Source: a virus. From it: a stretch of DNA of 62,690 nucleotides. The stretch is taken from the IMG/VR virus record IMGVR_UViG_3300032883_000564, positions 1-62,690 of that record; one strand, given 5' to 3'. Under the pieces are notes generated by a model that searched no databases, was not told the DNA's origin, and saw only the letters and a list, made by a program, of their open reading frames with translations. Of this stretch, positions 1,795-55,449 are shown one piece after another; position 1 is the stretch's first letter, and every line of letters starts with the position of its first letter. Position numbers and translations under genes: made by a program.

Positions 1795-3980
1795 TCGAGG
1801 TACTCCGCCCAGGTGACCTCCGCTCCAATGAAGTGGGCCGCAGCGGCACAGGTGTCGGTACCTTGTGTTCCGTCTCTGCGCACGTCGATCCTCAGCAGGT
1901 TCACTTGATCGAGAGAAGGAGCTACGGCAGACACAGCGGCCCAGATCTTCAAGAGACTGGCGGCGCTGCCCGAAGCTATTGTTGACTGTACTGTCGTTCC
2001 GGCAGCTATTACGTCGCCGCCGGCGACGATCAGCCTATAGTCGACGCTCCAGTACACGTTTCCGGCGGTCGCATCAGGCATAGCCCAGTGCACGTTGATG
2101 GCGATGTAGCCAACGCAGGTAGACGGAAGGACCAGAGTGCCGATACAGTGACCGTTATCCGCCTTAGCCATCACGCGAGTTGATAGCATGTCGTAGCCGC
2201 CGCCGAGCGAGCCGGAAGCTGCTCCGACGACCGCCTTGAACTTCTCGGCAGGAAGCCAAGCGGTCTTCACCAGACCGGTGTTTGCGGTCTTCGGGTTGTT
2301 GCCCAAACGCACCTTGCGACCGGTGCCGGTGTTGTAGTCCATGAACTTCTGGGCAGCAGCAACACCCGAGAAATCGCAGCCGACTACCGAATGCCGGGTG
2401 TTGTAGACGCCAGCCGTCACGGTAACTCCGTACGTGCCAGTACTAACCTCGACTTGACAACCGACCATTGACCACCGATCGCACTGCCCGTCGATCGTCA
2501 ACGCGTAGAGCCCGCCGCCGACGTCACAGTACCAGCTGCAGTTGGTGAAGCTTATGAGGCGCAGGTCGGTCAGCGCGGTGCTGGTTCCCGTGTGCTCGAT
2601 AAGCGAACGCCTGGAGAACTTGACGCCCTTAAACGCAAGCTCGTTCACTTGGGGTGCGTTGTCCCCAGTAGCGGTATTCACCTTGACGTGCAAGGCATCT
2701 CCGGGGTCGCCGTAGATCGTGGTATCAGTGAACCAGACCTTGCTGACAACATTTCCGTTGGATGCACTAGCGTCGATATCAACCGCGTAGTGGACGGCGA
2801 TTTCTATGGCACAGGACTGGATGCGAACGTGGGTAACATACTGGTACCCGGTCGCTGGAGGCCTGATCAACACGCAGGCTTGGTGGAAGTCGATGAACTC
2901 GATGGCCGTGAAGCGCGCACCATCTATCGCAGCGAGGTACAGACCCGCGTAGCCGCAGGTCGTGAACTCTGTCCCGTCGCTCCTCATTTGGGTCTGAACG
3001 GTGCCCTGGGAGAAGTAGTATCCCCAACCGCCGGCGTCCTGACTGATGTAAATGCCGGCAGCATCGGTGTTCGAGGAGATCGAGACCATATCGAAGGCGG
3101 TGCACGAGATCCACCGCGCCAAGCCGGTTATTGACAGGCATCGGAAGTGGCGGTGGGTCTCCTCGGTGTAGCCGTCCCACCAAACGTCTCGGAAGAAGCA
3201 CTTCTTGTTGCCTACTAGCTTGACTGTCGCGCCGGCTGTCTTGTCGACGCCGTCGACTTGGAAGCGCAGGTCCTGAACACCAATGCCGAAAGCGCCAGGA
3301 TCGAACACAAGGCCGTCTTGAGTCGCGTTCGTGAGCACGTAGACGGAGTTGCGGCCGGCACCCACGGAGACGGTGTTGGCATAGCAGGTGACGGAGGCAG
3401 TCGTCTTGTACCTGCCGATCGGATAGAGGACGATGCCGCCGCCGAAGGCGTTGGCCGCCGTGTAGGCTGCCTGGATCGCCGTCGTGTCGTCGGTTGTGCC
3501 ATCGCCGACGGCGCCGTAGTCCTTGACGTTGAACGTCGACGGGTTCCAGGGGCTGATGACCATGCGCTTATCGACGATCTGGTTGGCGTCGATGGCAGTG
3601 TCGCCCGCGGGGACGTAGACAGAAGCGAGGACAGCCGAGCTGGCAGGGATGGCCGGGAACACGGGGTTGGATGCCGCGGTGCCCTTCACCGCCGACTTGG
3701 TGCCGGCGGCGTTGACAACAATCAGGTCGAATCGCGCACTGGCCTCCGCGCTCAGGATCGTGACGTCACCAGCCGCGACCGCGACGGTGGTCCCGCCGAT
3801 CAGGACCGTGCCAACGGCCACCGCGACGAACATGGAGGCAGGGGCCTTAGCAGAAACAGCGCAACCGGAGAGGACTCCGGTGCGCTGAAAGGACAACGCC
3901 AGGATGTCGAAGTCTACCGCATCGGGCTCGGCCTGGCCAGGGAACGCCGCCGTCCCATAGTTCGGTATCGCGAAGGCCAT
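1791..3980 (-). CDS. Tail spike with pectate-lyase-like beta-helix
   Basis: 729 aa with a good RBS. Residues about 1-140 form a virion-anchoring part rich in Ala/Val strands. At about 150 the motif FNVKDYGAVGDGTTDDT begins, the hallmark of the pectate lyase 3 / right-handed beta-helix superfamily used by phage spikes to bind or depolymerise surface polysaccharide. The centre has the short-strand, Asn/Gly-turn pattern of a parallel beta-helix, and the C-terminus is beta rich (possible trimerisation domain). It is coupled to the next gene by ATGA. The role (receptor recognition or depolymerase at the tail tip) follows from the family; the glycan substrate cannot be read from sequence. Confidence 0.85.
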   Translation of the reverse strand: MAFAIPNYGTAAFPGQAEPDAVDFDILALSFQRTGVLSGCAVSAKAPASMFVAVAVGTVLIGGTTVAVAAGDVTILSAEASARFDLIVVNAAGTKSAVKGTAASNPVFPAIPASSAVLASVYVPAGDTAIDANQIVDKRMVISPWNPSTFNVKDYGAVGDGTTDDTTAIQAAYTAANAFGGGIVLYPIGRYKTTASVTCYANTVSVGAGRNSVYVLTNATQDGLVFDPGAFGIGVQDLRFQVDGVDKTAGATVKLVGNKKCFFRDVWWDGYTEETHRHFRCLSITGLARWISCTAFDMVSISSNTDAAGIYISQDAGGWGYYFSQGTVQTQMRSDGTEFTTCGYAGLYLAAIDGARFTAIEFIDFHQACVLIRPPATGYQYVTHVRIQSCAIEIAVHYAVDIDASASNGNVVSKVWFTDTTIYGDPGDALHVKVNTATGDNAPQVNELAFKGVKFSRRSLIEHTGTSTALTDLRLISFTNCSWYCDVGGGLYALTIDGQCDRWSMVGCQVEVSTGTYGVTVTAGVYNTRHSVVGCDFSGVAAAQKFMDYNTGTGRKVRLGNNPKTANTGLVKTAWLPAEKFKAVVGAASGSLGGGYDMLSTRVMAKADNGHCIGTLVLPSTCVGYIAINVHWAMPDATAGNVYWSVDYRLIVAGGDVIAAGTTVQSTIASGSAASLLKIWAAVSAVAPSLDQVNLLRIDVRRDGTQGTDTCAAAAHFIGAEVTWAEYLE

Positions 3981-4000
3981 CGGGCAATCACCCCCGTCGC

Positions 4001-4354
4001 CTAGATCTTGCCCAGGACCTCCTCCGACTCGATGCCCGGGGGCGCCACGATATCGCCGCCATCGCTGGGCTCGGCGGCCTCAGCCAGAATGAGCGACTCG
4101 TGCCGGGAGCTGGCCACACGCAGGGCGCCCTGTACGTCCTCCACCTCGGCGACCAGGGGAACCCGGGCTGCGGCTATCTCAGCGTCGGCCTCGGCCAGCG
4201 CCGCCGTAGCCCTTACCACCAGCTCCTGCGCCTCAGCCAGGGCCGTCGCAGCCTCGACCCGCTGCGCCTCAACCTCCGCGATCTGCTCTCGCAGGGCGTC
4301 GCGCTGCGTGATCAGGTCGTGAATCTCGGCCTCCACCTTTTCGATTTCAGACAT
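4001..4354 (-). CDS. Coiled-coil protein ending in a fibre-repeat motif
   Basis: 117 aa. I chose the ATG at 4354 (MSEIEKVEAEIHDLITQRD) because GGAGG lies 8 bases upstream; an ATG two codons earlier is too close to it. Residues 1-85 are one long heptad coiled coil rich in Ala, Glu and Arg. The last residues, PPGIESEEVLGKI, match the repeat unit of the protein encoded at 1-1343. Probably a tail-fibre accessory or trimerisation protein; function unknown. Confidence 0.7.
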   Translation of the reverse strand: MSEIEKVEAEIHDLITQRDALREQIAEVEAQRVEAATALAEAQELVVRATAALAEADAEIAAARVPLVAEVEDVQGALRVASSRHESLILAEAAEPSDGGDIVAPPGIESEEVLGKI

Positions 4355-4727
4355 GCCCATTACCTCCAGGAGGCGGGCCGGTCCGCACAACGGGCGTCCC
4401 AAGCACCTCCTCAGACTTCACTCCACCAGGCATCTTCCGGCGGAGATCCGAGTTCCAGGCGGCCTCTTTGGCCGCTTCAGCCTGAATGTCGGGGTTGTCC
4501 GTCAGGCCAAACGGCGCTCCCGAGCGGAGCAGGATGGCCTGGTCAAACGCGATGCCGGCCGCCTTCTGGAACTCCTCGGCCTTTGCAGCCATCGTCCGTA
4601 GCGCAGTGGCGAGGTCCTTAGCTGCCTCCCATGGCATCTCCGTCACGCGGCCATTTATCTCAAGCAGGACGTGATGGGCCTGCTGGCCGACGTTCACCGT
4701 CGTTCGCTCAGGCAGAATCACAGGCAT
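4347..4727 (-). CDS. Hypothetical tail-region protein with a fibre-repeat motif near its C-terminus
   Basis: 126 aa, starting MPVILPERTTVN at the ATG after GGGAG. No recognised domain. The tail reads PGGVKSEEVLGTPVV, again the repeat signature of the protein at 1-1343. It overlaps the following coiled-coil gene by 8 bp. Together the pair suggests small proteins that contact, cap or share ancestry with the fibre repeats; this is inference. Confidence 0.65.
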   Translation of the reverse strand: MPVILPERTTVNVGQQAHHVLLEINGRVTEMPWEAAKDLATALRTMAAKAEEFQKAAGIAFDQAILLRSGAPFGLTDNPDIQAEAAKEAAWNSDLRRKMPGGVKSEEVLGTPVVRTGPPPGGNGHV

Positions 4728-4754
4728 GGTCACTCCCGCTAATGGCGGATATGC

Positions 4755-5177
4755 CTACAACTTAAATATCTTCGTGGCTGGCGTGTTGTCCCACTGTATA
4801 GTGATGTTGCCTCCGTTCGGCGTCACCGGGTTGCCGGTGAACGTGTCCCACAGCGCGAGCAGGATCGACGTGTTCTCGGTACCGGTGTGATAGTACAGCA
4901 GGATGAGCTCGCACGGGTCGCCGGTGACAGCCGTGAGCAGCGCGTCGTCAGCGTCGGCCACGCCGAGGACGTTCGTCTTCGTGGTCAGCGTTGCCCAGTT
5001 GGCGAGCGCAGCCGGAACACGCCCCGCTGCCGCCACGTCCGAGATGTACTCGTGGGTGTCGATCACCGGGGTGTAGTCAGCGGCGTCAACCAGCCCTGCC
5101 TTGATCGTCTGGCTCGCCCAGAGGATATCGCCGGCCAGGATGTGCTGCCGGCCCTTTCCGTAAAGCGCGTTGGCCAT
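4755..5177 (-). CDS. Phage tail-associated protein, MANALYGKG family
   Basis: 140 aa. The start at 5177 (MANALYGKGRQHILAGD) follows GGGAGGAGG with 6-base spacing. The order of an initial MANALYxKGR, then KAGLVDAADYTP and a late beta-rich part resembles a family I recall from many siphovirus tail clusters, with no firm function. It probably belongs to the virion or tail tip. No membrane segment or catalytic motif is visible. Confidence 0.75.
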   Translation of the reverse strand: MANALYGKGRQHILAGDILWASQTIKAGLVDAADYTPVIDTHEYISDVAAAGRVPAALANWATLTTKTNVLGVADADDALLTAVTGDPCELILLYYHTGTENTSILLALWDTFTGNPVTPNGGNITIQWDNTPATKIFKL

Positions 5178-52887: not shown

Positions 52888-53686
52888 TCGTGCCCCCTTT
52901 CTTCAGTCTCACGTCCTTGCCTGTGCAGGCCACCACTCCTCGCCCGAACCGGCTGAGTATCCGGGGGTCCAGCCGGTCCGGATCCACGTTGCTCGTCACG
53001 ATAGTCGGAAGAGACGCGCCGTAGCGGGCGTCCAGCATCAGCCACAGCCGCTCACCCGCCCACTCCGTCGCCTTCTCGGTGCCGAGATCGTCAAGCACGA
53101 GCAGGCAGCGGCCCGTCATGAACGGGGCCATCAGATCCTCTATGGCGCCGACAACCCTTTCCTCCTCCGGGGTCCGCCTGTCCGCCTCATAGGCGTGCCG
53201 CCAGTAGTCCAGGAGATGGGGTACGGCACGGAACATGGCGCCGGGGTGCACCGTCTCTTTCATCGCCGCCACAGCCAGGTGCGTCTTTCCTGTGCCACAC
53301 TCCCCAATTAGGAGCGCCCCCCAGAGCCTGCCGGCCGCCACGGCCTTCGCCGCCCTGAGCGCGCGCTCCATACCCGGGTTCAGCGATAGGTCGAAGCTGG
53401 CGAAGGTGCAGACGTGAAAGCGTGGCGGGACCTGCTGGCGCCTGAGCCGCTGCTCTTCGGACTCGTCCAGGATGCACTGGCAGGGCAGGGCCTTACCGAA
53501 GTCAGGGTGGCCGAGGGGGACGCCAGCCCGGACGTAGCCGGCGTCGCCGCATAGCGGACAAGCCGGATCATCCTGAACCGGGGCACACCCGCTCCCCAAC
53601 GAGTCTTCGGGCGAACTCTCCCGGCCCTTCTCGATGATCTCGGCCAGCTTCCTCATCCCGCCTCGTGGCCCGCCTGCCAGCGTCAT
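52877..53686 (-). CDS. DnaC-like helicase loader ATPase
   Basis: 269 aa; ATG 53686 overlaps the methyltransferase stop (ATGA); ATG 53656 is an alternative. A Cys motif (CPLCGDAGYV ... LPCQC) precedes the AAA+ core: Walker A GECGTGKTH, Walker B LLVLDDLGTEK, sensor TIVTSNVD, arginine finger region ILSRFG. It would load the host DnaB on phage DNA. Confidence 0.9.
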   Translation of the reverse strand: MTLAGGPRGGMRKLAEIIEKGRESSPEDSLGSGCAPVQDDPACPLCGDAGYVRAGVPLGHPDFGKALPCQCILDESEEQRLRRQQVPPRFHVCTFASFDLSLNPGMERALRAAKAVAAGRLWGALLIGECGTGKTHLAVAAMKETVHPGAMFRAVPHLLDYWRHAYEADRRTPEEERVVGAIEDLMAPFMTGRCLLVLDDLGTEKATEWAGERLWLMLDARYGASLPTIVTSNVDPDRLDPRILSRFGRGVVACTGKDVRLKKGGTNAG

Positions 53687-55449
53687 GCCGCGCATTGCTT
53701 GATCCGTCTTCCGATCCACTCGATCACGTTCACCGTCACGGCGTCTCCGAGGGCGGCGTACCGCCTGCCATCGGGGCACCGTGAGCATGGGTCATTGAAG
53801 GGGGGATCGTTGTGGGTATGAACCCACTCATCAGGAAAAGCCTGAAGTCTGGAACACTCGACTGGGGTTAGTCTTCTAACAGAATAAGGGGCGTGTTCTG
53901 ATTGCGCTTGAAGGCCAGAGGATGACCCCACTTCTTGAAGCGCAGATAGTGCTTGTTGCAGTAACCGAGCCCCTTCTGGGGTTTTCCACAGATCACACAA
54001 GGGATGATGATAAGGTGTTCGTGAACGTGGCAACTGCGGCATATGCGCTCTAGGTTGCTCAGGGCTTGATTCGCATGATTCCCGTCCTTGTGGTGTACAT
54101 CCTTTGCGTTCAACGCGCCGCAGCGGCTGCATGGCCCCGGCGGTATCAGTTTTCGGGCGTGATAGTGAGGCGTTGATTGACCGTTCGCTCGGCTCACCCT
54201 CGCATCGAACGCCTGACTCATACACTGACGGTTGCAATACTTCCGCCGTCCGAAATGGAGCAAGGTCTCCAAGTCGCCGTCGCGCTCCCTCTTGCGAACC
54301 AGCAGCATCCCGCAGAAGGCGCAATACTTGATCGGGGTCGGCTTTCGTGGCATCGGCATATGCTTCTAGCATATGCCTCATACCTTCTACTGTCAAGGGT
54401 TCCCATCCTCCGTCGGGGTCAGGCGGCGCACAGATAAAGGTTTCGGATTCGGCATCGATTCTTCGGTTTGGGCCTGGGTGGGCATCGAGGGCAAGGGCGA
54501 TGAGGTTGTCGGCTCCGTCACCTCTCGGCCCTGAGTACCCGTGGTGCCCATCGCTGGCTTCAAGGGGAGCGGCGACTCCGTGTTGATGGCCCCGTTGGAG
54601 CGAGTACATTGGCCCCTCTCGGTATCCCCGTCCGACCTCTGGGCCACCGGATTGCTTGCCGCTGATGTCTTCGAGGGCGATGCAGGTTGTGCCGGTGTGT
54701 TCGTCAACGCCACGAGGGCTGCTTCTAAGTGCGTGGGCAACGCTCTCCCCCGCCTTTCCGCCCGCCGGAGTATCCCCGCCGCCGCCCTCGGTGAAAGCGA
54801 GTATTTCTGCGGCGCGGCCAGTTGGAGAATGTCCTTGAGAGAAGGGTGGGAACAGGGCGAGGACAAACACCCTACGTCTTCGCTGAGGAACCCAGTGCTG
54901 GGAGTCGATAATCCGCCATGCAAGGTCCACTGCCCCGCATTCGGCCAGCGAATTGAGAACCGTCCCGAAGTCTCGACCACTAGCTGCGCTGAGGAGACCG
55001 GGGACATTCTCGAATAGAGCGACGGTTGGAAACCGACCATTGGAAGCGACCCTCATCTCACGAATGATCCGAATGAACTCAAAGAACAGGCCAGAACGAG
55101 CACCGCCTATGCCTGCCCGCTTGCCGGCGACTGAGAGGTCTTGGCAGGGGAAGCCGCCGCAGATGAGATCAACAGACATTGCCTCTCGCCACCCCAGCGG
55201 CCCTCGCCCCTGAGCGGATAGGCCAAGCCCTCCTGCCATTCCAGGTTCGCCCCGTTCTCCCTCCCTCGCTGCATCAGGGCCAAAGGTTCGCACGTCTCCC
55301 CATCGGGGCACGTCGGGCCAGTGTCGGGCAAGGACTTGTCTTCGCCAGTCATCTATCTCCACCTGCCACTTGCACTCCCAGCCCGCCCGCTCCAGCCCCA
55401 GGTCGAAGCCGCCGATGCCTGAGAAGAGCGAGCCGAAGGTCACGCCCAC
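53683..55449 (-). CDS. Cytosine-C5 DNA methyltransferase containing a nested HNH gene
   Basis: 588 aa, against roughly 400 typical. GVTFGSLFSGIGGFDLGLER is motif I; FPCQDLSVAGKRAG (100-104) has the catalytic Cys; ENVPG (147-151) and QRRRRVF follow. The variable region holds phage-type repeats (HHGYSGPRGDGADN). About 165 residues (360-520) correspond to the DNA of an HNH gene read in another frame. SVRRLTPVECSRLQAFPDEW (523-542) and the C-terminal motif ALGDAVTVNV end the protein. Both frames are open. Methylation likely protects phage DNA. Confidence 0.85.
   Translation of the reverse strand: MGVTFGSLFSGIGGFDLGLERAGWECKWQVEIDDWRRQVLARHWPDVPRWGDVRTFGPDAAREGERGEPGMAGGLGLSAQGRGPLGWREAMSVDLICGGFPCQDLSVAGKRAGIGGARSGLFFEFIRIIREMRVASNGRFPTVALFENVPGLLSAASGRDFGTVLNSLAECGAVDLAWRIIDSQHWVPQRRRRVFVLALFPPFSQGHSPTGRAAEILAFTEGGGGDTPAGGKAGESVAHALRSSPRGVDEHTGTTCIALEDISGKQSGGPEVGRGYREGPMYSLQRGHQHGVAAPLEASDGHHGYSGPRGDGADNLIALALDAHPGPNRRIDAESETFICAPPDPDGGWEPLTVEGMRHMLEAYADATKADPDQVLRLLRDAAGSQEGARRRLGDLAPFRTAEVLQPSVYESGVRCEGEPSERSINASLSRPKTDTAGAMQPLRRVERKGCTPQGRESCESSPEQPRAHMPQLPRSRTPYHHPLCDLWKTPEGARLLQQALSALQEVGSSSGLQAQSEHAPYSVRRLTPVECSRLQAFPDEWVHTHNDPPFNDPCSRCPDGRRYAALGDAVTVNVIEWIGRRIKQCAA
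53868..54359 (-). CDS. HNH endonuclease nested in the methyltransferase gene
   Basis: 163 aa. YCAFCGMLL, then KYCNRQCMSQAF, RCGALNAKDVHHKDGNHANQ and LERICRSCHVHEH form a zinc-bound HNH nuclease; CVICGKPQKGLGYCNKHYLR is a C-terminal zinc module. Its stop lies in the codons for SVRRLTP of the host gene. It has its own promoter. Probably a homing endonuclease that entered the conserved methyltransferase motif. Confidence 0.85.
   Translation of the reverse strand: MPMPRKPTPIKYCAFCGMLLVRKRERDGDLETLLHFGRRKYCNRQCMSQAFDARVSRANGQSTPHYHARKLIPPGPCSRCGALNAKDVHHKDGNHANQALSNLERICRSCHVHEHLIIIPCVICGKPQKGLGYCNKHYLRFKKWGHPLAFKRNQNTPLILLED
54368..54396 (-). promoter_or_regulatory. Promoter of the nested HNH gene
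   Basis: TTGACA (54396-54391), 17 bases, TATGCT (54373-54368); eight bases to the ATG. The 8-bp palindrome GCATATGC occurs twice, separated by 5 bp, across the -10 box and start. Confidence 0.7.

Follow-up and report, generated by a model that had tools for sequence, protein, structure and literature searches.

A phage cytosine methyltransferase gene whose reading frame continues without a stop across a second gene in another frame raises the question of whether the inner gene has broken its host, is spliced out of it, or is simply read through. We addressed this question in a 62.7-kb viral contig (62,690 nucleotides, analyzed over its full length and called the window here), in which the methyltransferase has a replication-initiation-like protein and a DnaC-like loader as neighbors. 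An earlier note on this DNA had described an HNH gene nested in the open methyltransferase frame, the HNH stop overlapping a conserved SVRRLTP motif, and a second copy of that motif 551 bp upstream in the +1 frame; all of its coordinates proved right (Table 1). Comparison with relatives favors a dual-coding (overprinted) gene for a homing-type HNH endonuclease inside a phage m5C methyltransferase, a reading to which we give a probability of about 0.78.

Two genes in one stretch of DNA

The methyltransferase ORF had motifs I to VIII, IX, and X in order, with IX and X in frame past the HNH gene. Pfam family PF00145 matched residues 4 to 199 (E = 1.3e-48), and phrog_116 (PHROGs) covered residues 1 to 584 (E = 2.7e-74), that is, the entire ORF; the claim that the C-terminal motifs are still read in frame downstream of the HNH gene was thus borne out. 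In the AlphaFold model, blocks up to residue 220 mostly had a pLDDT of >80 (except residues 67 to 83) and residues 524 to 588 were largely confident; pLDDT was <50 across residues 220 to 523, which suggests that the insert behaves as a tolerated loop, as proposed for the ShiLan methylase discussed below.

Table 1. Features of the nested locus (positions are those of the window)
Feature	Position	Strand	Remarks
m5C methyltransferase (alpha) frame	53683..55449	-	588 aa, no internal stop, motif I to X across the HNH gene
Catalytic part, motifs I to VIII	54853..55440	-	GGFPCQ, ENV, QRRRR; Pfam stretch, residues 4 to 199
+1-frame ORF (beta-like)	54393..55040	-	215 aa; conserved KYSLSPRAAAGILRRAERRGRALP element; ends in truncated motif IX (LSVRRLTPTEDGNP*)
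Upstream SVRRLTPTE	54408..54434	-	first half of motif IX in the +1-frame ORF, severed by the insertion
Inserted cassette	53794..54408	-	leader, HNH, own motif IX; ~615 bp; GC 0.52-0.60 vs ~0.65 in flanks
Perfect 9-bp hairpin	54354..54376	-	GGCATATGC-TAGAA-GCATATGCC; contains the HNH ATG at 54359; z = -4.7
HNH endonuclease gene	53868..54359	-	163 aa, +1 relative to the methylase frame; three Cys/His zinc-site clusters, DVHHKDGN...NLERICRSCHVHEH
Cassette-borne motif IX	53827..53883	-	SVRRLTPVECSRLQAFPDEW; methylase frame; codons unlike the upstream copy
HNH stop TAA	53868..53870	-	over Leu-Thr of motif IX (RRLT)
Motif X and C terminus	53683..53793	-	SRCPDGRRYAALGDAVTVNVIEWIGRRI; common to uninserted alleles

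The product of the nested gene carried the HH...N...H motif and the zinc-binding Cys pairs of an HNH endonuclease, and these catalytic and zinc residues were invariant or near-invariant among 30 relatives. Pfam gave an HNH match in 30 of 30 members (HNH or HNH_3 in nearly all), the window's own match being weak and below the curated cutoff; in PHROGs, the window HNH matched phrog_1271 (E = 3e-11). Its AlphaFold model had a mean pLDDT of 88.6. Comparison of the HNH profile with PDB sequences gave weak matches only, and a Foldseek search with the model gave no match at E < 0.001. A start at 54353 was preferred to that at 54359, with better Shine-Dalgarno spacing and better agreement with relatives; an AGAAG within the loop and stem of the hairpin is found 9 nt upstream of this ATG. 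That the hairpin controls HNH expression is a guess; several other members also had hairpins, and the family-wide test of a hairpin hiding the ribosome-binding site was not significant (P = 0.11).

A further overlapping frame accompanies the two genes. The element KYxLSPKACxGILRRAEKRGKxLP was found soon after motif VIII in 50 loci, in the +1 frame in all of them. Most phage relatives had an overlapping +1 ORF after motif VIII, and the element was kept whether or not motif IX was in the +1 frame. Some copies of this ORF were DNA methyltransferases in PHROGs (phrog_16143), and it had no Pfam family; it has the look of an overprinted, widely distributed subunit or recognition part.

Uninserted alleles and the movement of the cassette

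Relatives without the insert were sought and found. The closest HNH-free relatives were L207 and L001, and L199 was also HNH-free; in all three, the methylase frame was intact with motifs IV and X, and motif IX lay in the +1 frame (VRRLTPTECERLQSFPDGWT in L207). L003, L012, L013, and L023 had the same layout, with motif IX in an overlapping second ORF in +1. Motifs I to VIII and X of the uninserted relatives were thus in frame 0 and motif IX was in +1, and the 20-residue motif IX across these seven loci was 87% identical when read in +1 and 46% identical when read in frame 0.

The edges of the cassette were taken as the points at which similarity to uninserted alleles stops and resumes (blastn against L001, L207, and L201). 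At the upstream edge, the window aligned with L001 and L207 up to ...CTGACCCCGACGGA| (54409), and similarity resumed at 53793. The match to L001 ran through TCTGTGCGCCGCCTGACCCCGACGGA (25 of 26 bases) and then from GACCCATGCTCACGG to the end of the gene; over positions 53683 to 53793, nucleotide identity was 87% (L001), 89% (L207), and 92% (L201). Between the match points, L001 had 33 nt and the window 615 nt, a net gain of 582 nt (194 codons); the net insertion relative to L207 was 480 nt (160 codons).

The upstream SVRRLTPTE was identical to uninserted motif-IX DNA at 25 of 26 nt (L001) and 22 of 24 nt (L207). A chance match, which the earlier note had named as one way in which its reading could fail, was rejected, the copy being near-identical to the complete +1 motif IX of these two relatives; the other such case, extra methylase sequence without an HNH frame, was found in none of the relatives examined. 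Since the window matches L001 and L207 on either side, the cassette landed inside the +1 motif IX and broke it, bringing along a motif IX that is differently coded and can be read in the methylase frame. Entry of the cassette at the motif with its own, differently coded copy, as proposed earlier, therefore stands, but it is wrong to see the upstream copy as a frame-shifted remnant of the methylase chain, motif IX being in +1 already in the uninserted relatives. The earlier argument from the 551-bp offset also needs correction: 551 is indeed not divisible by three, but the net insertions relative to the uninserted alleles L001 and L207 both are.

The second motif, SVRRLTPVE at 53857 to 53883, is in frame 0 and is tied to the end of the HNH gene. 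In 36 of 74 relatives, the HNH stop (TAA or TGA) lay at one fixed offset within RRLT, and the VRR codons were also read as the HNH C terminus; the upstream SVRRLTPTE copy has no such interlock. The AT-rich codons of the downstream motif (AGA AGA CTA ACC) in a GC-rich gene are explained by this interlocking of the HNH stop and C terminus with motif IX. The DNA similarity of nested members to the window extended over the HNH gene through 4 to 12 nt beyond its stop.

Whether the HNH gene still moves was judged from the distribution of inserts. On the methylase tree, most inserted methylases clustered, a one-clade tree of inserted methylases was not rejected (AU P = 0.115), and HNH and methylase distances were correlated (rho, 0.53 to 0.56). 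Such clustering and correlation would suit an extra methylase region that serves as a functional domain, with the HNH a resident gene that no longer homes. We consider this unlikely: the window itself fell among uninserted methylases, the region is predicted to be unstructured, and residue-level constraint beyond openness was not seen. Identity in the methylase frame did exceed simulation, but the third-frame control showed a similar excess, and selection on methylase-frame residues beyond openness is therefore not claimed. The 80 methylases closest in sequence to that of the window all lacked a family HNH at the site, and the HNH genes of the window and L139 were 69% identical, while their methylases were only 47% identical.

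HNH restriction enzymes exist, and HNH and methylase genes are locked together across the family, so that the HNH could be the restriction partner of the methylase, the two forming a compact restriction-modification pair in one DNA stretch. This is improbable, however, given that methylases only 30 to 50% alike, with unlike variable regions, harbor HNH genes of one and the same family, and that uninserted relatives keep the methylase alone. In L182, L185, and L189, moreover, the family HNH is nested between motifs IX and X and not before motif IX, a second site such as a mobile gene would use.

The open frame across the family

Three HNH sequences (from the window, L081, and Staphylococcus phage CUB-EPI_14) served as seeds for scans of viral contigs and genomes, which yielded 75 distinct loci, 74 of them with a match of >300 nt; these counts include related metagenome contigs, which are not independent events, and some frame breaks may be errors. 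The range comprised Staphylococcus and Komagataeibacter phages, a Peptococcaceae genome, and many metagenomic viruses. The HNH was at +1 in all 51 members that had the methylase N terminus in the same ORF. Among the other members, 11 had the N terminus in an upstream ORF that did not join, 9 were on contigs cut near the HNH, and 3 had no N terminus by profile; the nonjoining frames in a few members could reflect misassembly, gene splitting, or decay. By sequence, the nested HNH arrangement is a family of at least 70 members and not a one-off.

The methylase frame, one base before the HNH frame, was free of stops in 73 of the 74 long-match relatives, and the third frame over the HNH had 1 to 18 stops in the relatives. 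The exception was L115, which has methylase-frame stops; the short L190 was also broken. We then resampled synonymous HNH codons using each phage's own codon usage: among the 31 relatives tested, 369 methylase-frame stops were expected and 0 were observed, and an open frame by chance was rejected. For CUB-EPI_14, 23 stops were expected, and L115 served as an inner control, with 25 stops seen versus 23 expected. The open methylase frame across the HNH is selected.

The window is GC-rich and taken alone reached just P = 0.0055 for no stops (4.9 expected on average), values that leave room for a methylase broken by the insertion, with an open frame as a by-product of high GC. Across the family, this is highly improbable: no stops were seen in L084, L107, L108, L109, and L111, in which the HNH has 30 to 36% GC and 15 to 23 stops were expected, and motifs IX and X were in frame in most members. 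HNH genes are often carried in group I introns, which speaks for splicing of the insert as an intron or intein, but we give this hardly any credence, as no Rfam match was found even at E = 1 and no group I or II ribozyme core was recognized, the ~120 bp of non-HNH sequence is too small for a group I core, Pfam recognized no intein in the extra residues, the net insertion is divisible by three, and a frame open in 73 of 74 relatives would be needless under splicing.

Several loci showed variants of the arrangement. In L103 and L104, the methylase frame was open over the HNH and then stopped within motif IX (VRRLTPL*LECERLQ), and L105 broke at the same point; the same odd ending in these related contigs suggests that it is real. 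L104 had two family HNH genes (3222 to 3767 and 3998 to 4465) in one methylase region, the first nested in a +1 (beta-like) ORF (2771 to 3745) whose frame stays open across it. L086 (Komagataeibacter phage phiKX1, 1360 to 3009) had a methylase of a distant type, whose WPTP-rich +1 ORF ended a few nucleotides before the +1 HNH gene, the methylase frame being open throughout. In L194, a frame of 957 codons (1885 to 4758) for uracil-DNA glycosylase, 3'-5' exonuclease, and family-A DNA polymerase was open across an out-of-frame HNH of another subfamily (3812 to 4156), the same trick in a polymerase gene.

Under the overprinted-endonuclease reading, ribosomes would enter at the internal start and make the endonuclease, which would cleave the uninserted methylase genes of coinfecting phages or prophages at their conserved motif-IX DNA, and repair of the break would copy the cassette into the cut allele. 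The long methylase would stay functional with its motifs VIII and IX set apart by ~165 additional unstructured residues, overprinting thereby doing for the HNH what splicing does for introns and inteins. Going further, we tentatively propose, at somewhat less than even odds, a widespread lineage of overprinting homing endonucleases in methylase genes, with the stop interlocked with motif IX, which here moved motif IX from a second-frame subunit to the main chain and so turned a split methylase into a single-chain one. Mobile endonucleases had been believed to require introns, inteins, or intergenic sites if the host gene was to be spared; this family would represent a third way, in which the host frame is read straight through the parasite's gene, as seen statistically across many phages and GC contents, and a mobile gene could thus invade coding sequence without splicing. 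Because close uninserted alleles exist, the insertion event can be read nearly base by base, which makes cleavage and homing directly testable. Long phage methylases of the nested type would also hide endonuclease genes missed in annotation, as in CUB-EPI_14, where the methylase alone is annotated at the nested site.

Comparison with known systems

Aeh1 nrdA with mobE is a case of genes in pieces through homing endonuclease insertion, in which nrdA is split in two. The window resembles it in having a free-standing HNH homing gene, as we read it, within coding sequence, with the host function thought to be kept, but its host protein is read through in one piece and not split.

In M.EcoHK31I, the smaller polypeptide is nested in another frame. 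The larger subunit of this methylase has motifs I to VIII and X, whereas motif IX alone is carried by the smaller polypeptide (PMC3404938). By layout alone, L001, L012, L013, L023, L199, and L207 are M.EcoHK31I-like, with motifs I to VIII and X in one frame and IX in a +1 ORF. The split is thus present at the sequence level in uninserted relatives and absent from the window, in which, unlike in M.EcoHK31I, the methylase frame has a motif IX of its own and the one in +1 is truncated.

The closest parallel is the ShiLan domain in the methylase gp65 of mycobacteriophage ShiLan, an out-of-frame HNH over which the methylase frame is open (Arsenault, Gosselin, Gogarten; PMC11855218). This kind of nesting was first reported in 2025, in actinobacteriophages (PMC11855218), and the spread of the ShiLan domain is patchy (PMC9957025). 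ShiLan and the window have in common an out-of-frame HNH in a phage methylase and a stop-free methylase frame, with no splicing signature. The ShiLan insert, like that of the window, ends in TAAC, and an 11-residue stretch of it resembles the sequence after the insertion site, comparable to the motif copies of the window. Constella, a mycobacteriophage annotated with the same nesting, was used as a stand-in for the ShiLan type. Its HNH is an HTH plus HNH_3 protein with a 30-column core resemblance to the window family (E = 0.075), and it is at +2, just after motif VIII, whereas the HNH of the window family is at +1, at motif IX; with Constella as the stand-in, the window thus shared neither HNH homology beyond that core nor frame nor site with the ShiLan type. 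Judged from these sequences, the nested-HNH kind is already known, and the window family appears to differ from it in endonuclease, frame, site, and breadth. What is added here beyond the ShiLan work is uninserted alleles at the nucleotide level and a codon-based stop test.
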